Source of the DNA: Palaeococcus ferrophilus DSM 13482
GTDB taxonomy: Archaea > Methanobacteriota_B > Thermococci > Thermococcales > Thermococcaceae
Assembly: GCF_000966265.1 (NCBI RefSeq)
Contig: NZ_LANF01000007.1
Location: forward strand, 1-64,000
Direction of reading: 5' to 3'
Length of the DNA: 64,000 bases
Under the pieces are notes generated by a model. The model worked only from the letters and a program-made list of their open reading frames with translations. It did not search any database and was not told where the DNA came from. Position 1 is the first letter of the stretch, and each line of letters begins with the position of its first letter. The position numbers and the translations under genes are program-made. Positions 46,447 through 47,763 of this stretch are shown here, in pieces.

Positions 46447-46686
46447 TTATTTCCGCTTTCTCAACCTCTTCTCCAGCTCGTTGGGGGTCAAGTATTCGAC
46501 TTTATCCGAACTGCCGATAATGTAGGGCTCTTTGTATTGCCGCGGCGTTTTAATAGTGTAGTGGATTATACCTAATAGCAACCCTACACAAATTACCTTC
46601 CCGCTAAGACCGCTATCCCAAAGCAAGGGAAAAGACATAATCCAAAGTAAAAACAATAGGAGAGATGATACCGGCTTTTTATTCAT
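46447..46686 (-). CDS. small membrane protein of twin-peptide operon (copy 1)
   Basis: This 79-residue protein has two hydrophobic segments (about 6-24 and 28-45) and a cytoplasmic-looking tail carrying YKEPYIIGSSDKVEYLTPNELEKRLRKRK. The tail matches the neighbouring small membrane protein at 46815-47075 (KEPYIxGxSxxxEYLTxxELExRLR). ATG 46686 follows GGGAGGGTT and stands three bases after the stop of a 33-residue peptide. It could be an immunity, carrier or partner protein for that peptide; function is unknown. Confidence 0.65.
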   Translation of the reverse strand: MNKKPVSSLLLFLLWIMSFPLLWDSGLSGKVICVGLLLGIIHYTIKTPRQYKEPYIIGSSDKVEYLTPNELEKRLRKRK

Positions 46687-46688
46687 TG

Positions 46689-46790
46689 TTAAACCCTCCC
46701 AAATAGCCTTTCAACATATCCAACAACTACCGTTCCCATCCACTGAAGGACAAAGCTTTTGGTGGAGCCAGCACTAACGCTCCCGCCCAA
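46689..46790 (-). CDS. short hydrophobic peptide of twin-peptide operon (copy 1)
   Basis: This 33-residue product reads as a Gly/Ser-rich start (GGSVSAGSTKSF), a hydrophobic GTVVVGYV stretch and a basic tail ERLFGRV. TTG 46790 has GGGGGAA six bases upstream; no ATG occurs earlier in the frame, which is closed by the stop of the upstream membrane protein. It is intimately linked to the downstream membrane gene (2-base gap). Composition recalls small pore-forming or signal peptides, but no family was recognised. The call is inference from frame, ribosome site and duplication. Confidence 0.45.
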   Translation of the reverse strand: MGGSVSAGSTKSFVLQWMGTVVVGYVERLFGRV

Positions 46791-46814
46791 TGAGCCTTCC
46801 CCCTGATCGTCAAT

Positions 46815-47075
46815 TCATGACTCCCCAGTTTTTCCATGCCTAAGACGTTGTTCCAGCTCCTCTTCTGTAAGATACTCAATTTCCTTTGAATCACCAAGGA
46901 TATAGGGTTCTTTGGATATCCTGATAGAATGTTTAATCCATCCTTTGGAGTCTAATAGATAAATAGCAAGAACACTTAAAAATGCTGGAATCAGTCCATC
47001 AACCAAGGTTTTCCAAAAAACACTCTCAAAAAGAAATATCGAAAAGAAGATTATTACATAAGTCCTCGCCCTCAT
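46815..47075 (-). CDS. small membrane protein of twin-peptide operon (copy 2)
   Basis: This 86-residue protein has two hydrophobic segments (about 5-22 and 26-43) and a tail with SKEPYILGDSKEIEYLTEEELEQRLRH, paralogous to the protein at 46447-46686. ATG 47075 follows GGGGGATGA and begins 4 bases after the stop of a 27-residue peptide. Low GC and duplication suggest an accessory locus. Confidence 0.65.
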   Translation of the reverse strand: MRARTYVIIFFSIFLFESVFWKTLVDGLIPAFLSVLAIYLLDSKGWIKHSIRISKEPYILGDSKEIEYLTEEELEQRLRHGKTGES

Positions 47076-47079
47076 CTAA

Positions 47080-47163
47080 TCATCCCCCTAAATACTGCTT
47101 AAGTAAATTATACGCTTCTACTATTATGCTTGTTACTGCTCCAACTTTTCCTGCTACTACCAC
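47080..47163 (-). CDS. short hydrophobic peptide of twin-peptide operon (copy 2)
   Basis: This 27-residue product (VVAGKVGAVTSIIVEAYN, then LLKQYLGG) starts at GTG 47163, with GAAGGGG five bases upstream. The frame is open upstream for only 17 further codons, back to a TAA at 47215-47217, without another start. It resembles the peptide at 46689-46790 in length, Gly-rich N-terminal half and amphipathic C-terminal half. It is first cistron after a strong TATA box. Confidence 0.45.
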   Translation of the reverse strand: MVVAGKVGAVTSIIVEAYNLLKQYLGG

Positions 47164-47246
47164 ACTCGCCCCTTCTACTAAAATGTCTGAATCCCGAAAA
47201 TTAAGGAACTGTTGTAATTAAACTCAATTTACAACTAGCGTTAGTG

Positions 47247-47257
47247 TTTAAAAATTT
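47247..47257 (-). promoter_or_regulatory. TATA box of the twin-peptide operon
   Basis: On the minus strand the A/T run reads ATTTTTAAACAC, a good archaeal TATA element. It predicts transcription from about 47225, some 60 bases before the first peptide. The 47164-47246 gap holds only this promoter and leader. Confidence 0.5.
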
Positions 47258-47391
47258 TTTGTAGTAAAACCAGCACAAGTTAAAGAACCCCCAATACTTG
47301 AAGAAAACACGGTTTTATTAAAATGGTTCATGAATATAACGAAATGGCAGCTCACAAAAACAGGCGGGAGGGGGCGTTAAATGGAGTGGTG

Positions 47392-47763
47392 TCAGCCCTT
47401 CCCATGCTTCTCGTACCAACCCCACTCCCTTTTGGGGCCAAAGCTCCTGACACCCCTCTCAGCGAGCTGAAGGCGCAGTCTCTCAGCGAGCTCGTGGGTT
47501 ATCTCGCCCCTATCCTCAAGCCAGTTTATAATCTCGAGGGCCTGCTCGTCCGTCTCACAGCGCTGGAGGTAGTCAAAAACGTTGGGGATGTACTCGTGGA
47601 GGTCAATGAGGTCTTCTTCCTCCTCATCCGTGGAGTAAGCGTCTATGACAACACCCTCCCCTTCAAGCTCCTTTGATAGGGCGGGAAAACGCTCTTCAAA
47701 CTCCTTCTTGTCGTATTCCTGCCAGGGGAACTCGTCCACGGGGCGTTTTTTCTTTCTGTCCAT
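47392..47763 (-). CDS. DUF2095-like acidic protein
   Basis: This 123-residue very acidic soluble protein (DEFPWQEYDKKEFEERFPAL; STDEEEEDLIDLHEYIPNV) has the look of the Thermococcales DUF2095 family. The middle (LQRCETDEQALEIINWLEDRG) and end (ELAERLRLQLAERGVRSFG) read as a helical hairpin. Function is unknown. It is divergent from the GIY-YIG gene, with a 60-base promoter region between them. Confidence 0.65.
   Translation of the reverse strand: MDRKKKRPVDEFPWQEYDKKEFEERFPALSKELEGEGVVIDAYSTDEEEEDLIDLHEYIPNVFDYLQRCETDEQALEIINWLEDRGEITHELAERLRLQLAERGVRSFGPKREWGWYEKHGKG

Follow-up and report, generated by a model that had tools for sequence, protein, structure and literature searches.

A minus-strand block of two short frames and two small membrane proteins, found in a 64,000-nucleotide stretch of the Palaeococcus ferrophilus DSM 13482 genome (the window), is almost certainly the remnant of a VARTIG gene, an assignment that we make through its architecture. 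We consider it likely that the block is an orphan, decayed array of VARTIG cassettes, whose membrane proteins, B1 and B2, would be immunity-like and still be expressed from a VARTIG promoter. Makarova et al. described VARTIG in 2021 as hypervariable, of unknown function and with no identifiable toxin; it is a Thermococcales-only module that combines a large secreted Ig protein, whose C-terminus is hypervariable, with smaller C-terminal copies and with matched small membrane proteins (PMC8416519). New here is the apparent joint exchange of the segment that follows the Ig domains with the membrane half of protein B. The features of the block are as follows.

46447-46686, minus strand: B2, 79 aa from ATG, two transmembrane (TM) helices, tail like that of B1 and matching many copies
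46689-46735, minus strand: rest of peptide 2, presumably a C-terminal end, TVVVGYVERLFGRV; homology breaks at 46736
46689-46790, minus strand: peptide 2 frame, 33 aa from TTG
46736-46800, minus strand: CARDB/Ig-like fragment opening peptide 2, inside a 176-bp, 90% match to the G068 array
46815-47075, minus strand: B1, 86 aa from ATG, two TM helices, EPYILGDS...EYLTEEEL tail
47080-47163, minus strand: peptide 1 frame, 27 aa from GTG
47080-47190, minus strand: peptide 1 remnant, about 36 codons, C-terminus of a VARTIG gene; its upstream homology limit is approximate
47228-47446, minus strand: copy of a VARTIG 5' region and promoter, with an A/T-rich TATA-like box at 47247-47257

At the level of layout, the sequence-only reading was right: the four minus-strand frames, their order and their close spacing (2-24 nt, with G-rich ribosome sites) were confirmed from the sequence, as was the AT-richness of the block (GC 37-49%, vs. 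60% for moeA and 55% for the window). The common tail of the two membrane proteins also held, since B1 as query retrieves B2 from the same genome (E=2e-6), chiefly via the tail.

The two peptides are better explained by a large gene. The closest relatives of B1 have a long frame that abuts or overlaps B; in G024 it has 975 codons, in G044 and G063 about 250-270, and among relatives the Ig-domain genes placed in this way span 250-989 codons. The long frames of G024, G044, and G063 terminate in ...AEVSISAGISAAEVGAVTSVIVEVYNILKQHL or near variants, and the DNA of peptide 1 also matches these three. We searched a 412-residue C-terminal piece of the G024 large protein against the window's own genome (G000, with C18 and C6 among its contigs), and window positions 47083-47166 were 61% identical to residues 385-412, the last 28 of the query. 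Judged by this homology, peptide 1 is the C-terminus of a large surface protein with Ig domains.

Peptide 2 opens with SGSVSAGSTKSF-type sequence that aligns to the CARDB-like Ig region of intact proteins. The match to the G068 array ends at about 46736 and is followed by a different C-terminal end, of a type that weakly resembles the L115 end. Peptide 2 would be a CARDB-like Ig fragment joined by deletion to a C-terminal end, and a comparable collapse precedes B in G090, where an Ig fragment is fused to the last 16 residues. From these alignments, both peptides are deletion remnants.

The earlier proposal, in which the 27- and 33-residue peptides are functional genes (for a bacteriocin, a toxin, or a signal) and the membrane proteins their partners, we regard as very improbable. 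In its favour, neither frame is interrupted before the ribosome site of B, where both end; peptide 1 is hydrophobic (GRAVY 1.08); and the substitutions against relatives are mostly synonymous. But the synonymous constraint may date from the large gene, and the codon-substitution test on peptide 1 does not separate selection before truncation from selection after it. The putative starts (GTG and TTG) are codons of the ancestral frame and do not count as independent evidence for genes, because both frames descend from a longer reading frame; moreover, the peptides have no export signal. The note asked whether a frame of 25-40 codons always precedes the membrane protein. Many B homologues lack one: upstream they have a large gene, a two-TM gene of a different kind, or a further B copy, and some have no partner that could be recognised. 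Pfam and NCBIfam gave nothing useful for either peptide. Class II bacteriocin/immunity and small toxin-antitoxin operons share with the window a short, hydrophobic, Gly-rich peptide beside a small membrane protein, but here there is no leader, exporter, or family match, and the peptides are parts of a large protein. The duplicated unit and its likeness to bacteriocin/immunity pointed the right way, but the peptides are not genes in their own right.

The promoter proposed at 47247-47257 is backed by homology: an intact gene elsewhere in this genome has a matching 5' region. Window positions 47228-47446 are 91% identical over 219 bp to contig C18 (L125 6369-6587), and the match ends 12 nt short of the ribosome site and ATG of a VARTIG gene that is intact there and opens with a hydrophobic, signal-like stretch. 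At 928 codons, it exceeds the 500 aa expected of the large VARTIG protein. Downstream of the C18 gene lie membrane proteins and an Ig protein of 375 codons that is an orphan. At the window locus itself the large VARTIG gene is absent, and about 45-80 bp with no assigned homology separate the promoter copy from the C-terminal homology. Given the match to an intact gene, the window's promoter would once have served a large gene that is now lost but for its last 36 or so codons. Like VARTIG elsewhere (arCOG07710 and partners), the window's genome has an intact copy of the large Ig/CARDB-like gene, but the window locus, unlike VARTIG elsewhere, keeps only those codons and the promoter. The lost large gene, the C-terminal remnants, and the promoter copy together point to a decayed, orphan VARTIG cassette.

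Two further observations concern this genome. The upstream end of the promoter copy spans the last codons of an adjacent 123-aa gene; the repeat at window 47392-47446 and L125 6369-6420 holds the end of this gene, as if the 5' border of the VARTIG island on C18 had been copied from the window site, or the two sites had recombined. Besides, a further VARTIG-type N-terminal region is found at G000:C6:67591-68250, with an open frame of just 387 codons.

We propose that a full VARTIG gene once stood at the locus, with a signal peptide, a conserved N-terminal region, several Ig/CARDB-like domains, and a variable C-terminal segment. About 900 codons would have been deleted, leaving peptide 1 ahead of its partner gene B1, and a second, orphan Ig/C-terminal fragment would have collapsed into peptide 2 ahead of B2. 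One could go further and read the whole block as non-functional debris in which the B genes have yet to decay, a reading we find doubtful. That both peptides are deletion remnants speaks for it, as do the stops or frame breaks in several related loci, but both B frames are intact, with ribosome sites, and the copied promoter shares 94% identity with that of C18, which looks active. Against its relatives B1 has mostly synonymous differences (dN about 0.2, dS about 1 or more), which suggests that it was maintained, at a time that these values do not date relative to the deletion.

At the family level, the C18-type N-terminal region is present in 51 of the 94 Thermococcaceae genomes. There are 33 B copies that share a contig with such a region: 25 lie downstream of it, on its strand and no more than 20 kb away, and the 20 kb upstream hold none. 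The large proteins gave sub-threshold Ig-like Pfam matches alone (I-set, DUF11). VARTIG proteins should have two conserved cysteines in the distal Ig domain, along with a GN motif; the alignment has one invariant cysteine column and a second cysteine in most rows, and a model of the Ig region plus the C-terminal segment predicts, at moderate confidence, a mostly beta Ig region. By eye, we also spotted a candidate GN motif (YGNNNP or FGNSNP) before the Ig region.

Searching the same 94 genomes with B1 and B2 gave a family of about 45-50 copies, commonly several per genome and in some genomes in tandem arrays. The family build is two TM helices followed by an EPYIIGxS...YLTxxEL tail; in a 14-row alignment the tail (EPYIIG.S....YLT..EL) is nearly invariant and the hydrophobic half in front of it is divergent. 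The predicted structure of B1 has helices at residues 3-20 and 24-43, a small strand pair, and a short helix (pLDDT 74, moderate). B1 is 66% identical to the G024 copy that comes after the 975-codon gene. For B2 the best overall identity is 45%, and its membrane half had no close relative in the 94 genomes. B was not detected in 21 genomes of other families of the class, the viral contigs searched held no relative of it, and a scan of named genome contigs gave matches solely in Thermococcaceae; Pfam, NCBIfam, and PADLOC returned nothing useful for it.

Several genomes have orphan B copies and partial remnants. Solitary B genes occur at G044:C1:588438, G070:C1:857094, G092:C1:1191361, and G014:C1:1438013, hundreds of kb from detected VARTIG N-terminal regions, so the window is not alone in its orphan state. 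A second B subfamily (L063, L071, L081, L084, L085, L091, L093) stands behind a different small multi-helix membrane protein and not behind an Ig protein. In L090 and L096, the B tail lies mid-way in a longer membrane protein of about 140 aa, with more hydrophobic stretches after the tail.

The C-terminal segment of the large protein and the membrane half of B very probably form one exchange unit between conserved flanks. Between L111 and L109, identity is 89% in the last Ig domain, 17% in the next 50-65 residues or so, 17% in the B membrane half, and 74% in the B tail; the same four parts give 95, 31, 31, and 77% between L111 and L113. In the DNA of L109 and L103a, identity is 95% as far as the end of the Ig domain (YVEK); some 375 bp then have no match, and from the EPYI tail onwards identity is 84%. 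This sandwich pattern is independent of the permutation test, in which, with segment borders set by hand and ancestry ignored, the similarity of C-terminal segments predicted that of B membrane halves over 19 pairs (r=0.88, p=5e-5) and among 10 divergent representatives (r=0.71, p=5.5e-4). The C-terminal segments of L118 and L112b were read through a frame break or stop. Similarity in the B tail correlated weakly when all pairs were taken (r=0.15, p=0.01) and not at all among the 10 divergent representatives (p=0.88). According to the VARTIG paper, variability resides in the distal Ig domain and the C-terminal motif may be a sorting signal (PMC8416519), whereas the unit exchanged here starts after the Ig domain and extends into the B membrane half.

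A polymorphic toxin is expected to have a variable C-terminal domain that is swapped jointly with an adjacent partner, and orphan modules; all of these were found. By analogy, a unit and partner exchanged between constant borders, with orphans downstream, would be the signature of toxin/immunity cassettes. In the bacterial CDI and Rhs systems, the orphan cdiA-CT/cdiI and rhs-CT/rhsI modules are, as in the window, detached C-terminal fragments with an intact partner gene next to them, and, as at VARTIG loci, C-terminus and partner are exchanged as a unit (PMC3150448). Orphan toxin fragments of CDI usually lack initiation signals, and the orphan immunity gene can be expressed (PMC3150448). Unlike these, the system in the window is archaeal and its partner has a constant tail; the likeness noted is one of organisation. 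The break points, where identity is lost right behind the last Ig domain and regained at the constant tail of the following gene, point to the short C-terminal segment as effector and to B as its partner, an assignment that makes the conflict hypothesis testable with small constructs.

On balance, we lean towards B being an immunity protein, and take the peptides for truncated C-terminal domains that probably act at membranes. The VARTIG protein would be exported, given its signal-like start, its Ig domains might reach another cell, and the hydrophobic C-terminal segment could act at the target membrane. The B membrane half, as the covariation suggests, would recognise and neutralise the cognate C-terminal segment, from its own cell or from neighbours, and in the window the protective half alone would remain. 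We give even chances to the wider proposal that VARTIG is an archaeal polymorphic toxin system whose short, membrane-acting C-terminal segments are weapons, each with a two-TM immunity protein. There, the constant EPYIIG tail would be the downstream border of an exchangeable toxin/immunity cassette, and Thermococcales genomes, including this one, would retain orphan immunity genes after deletion of the weapon.

Any two matched components, for instance an anchor with its partner, could also give rise to the covariation. The C-terminal segment may anchor or display the Ig protein, with B as a dedicated anchor, chaperone, or signalling partner, and the window would then keep leftover partners; we hold this possible but unlikely. 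A matched pair for adhesion or self/nonself recognition fits the same covariation and exchange data, and the alternatives named in the VARTIG paper include adhesion/self-recognition and a complement-like role (PMC8416519). The C-terminal segments are moderately hydrophobic (best 19-residue Kyte-Doolittle mean 0.95-1.75), and no toxin fold was recognised in them by Pfam or in a structure model whose confidence there was not usable; the fold search was uninformative, and solved structures searched by sequence held no credible match. But such a pair by itself leaves unexplained the tandem B arrays and the solitary B genes, both those in the window and the four in other genomes. The readings overlap, as a matched non-toxin pair could be decaying too, and their probabilities need not add up to one.

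Finally, a G-rich ribosome site lies 8-21 nt before B, at or beside the end of the upstream frame, in all 20 cases examined. We propose that one reason at least why the C-terminal remnants persist is that their last codons supply the ribosome site of B and keep B behind the VARTIG promoter. The C-terminal Gly-Gly(-Asp/Glu) of VARTIG proteins, which belongs to the motif seen in the 2021 paper as a possible sorting signal, overlaps the ribosome site of the next gene, GGAGGTGAT in frame encoding Gly-Gly-Asp (L109, L110, L112, L113, and window 47080-47090), and the conservation of that motif may partly be a DNA-level constraint.
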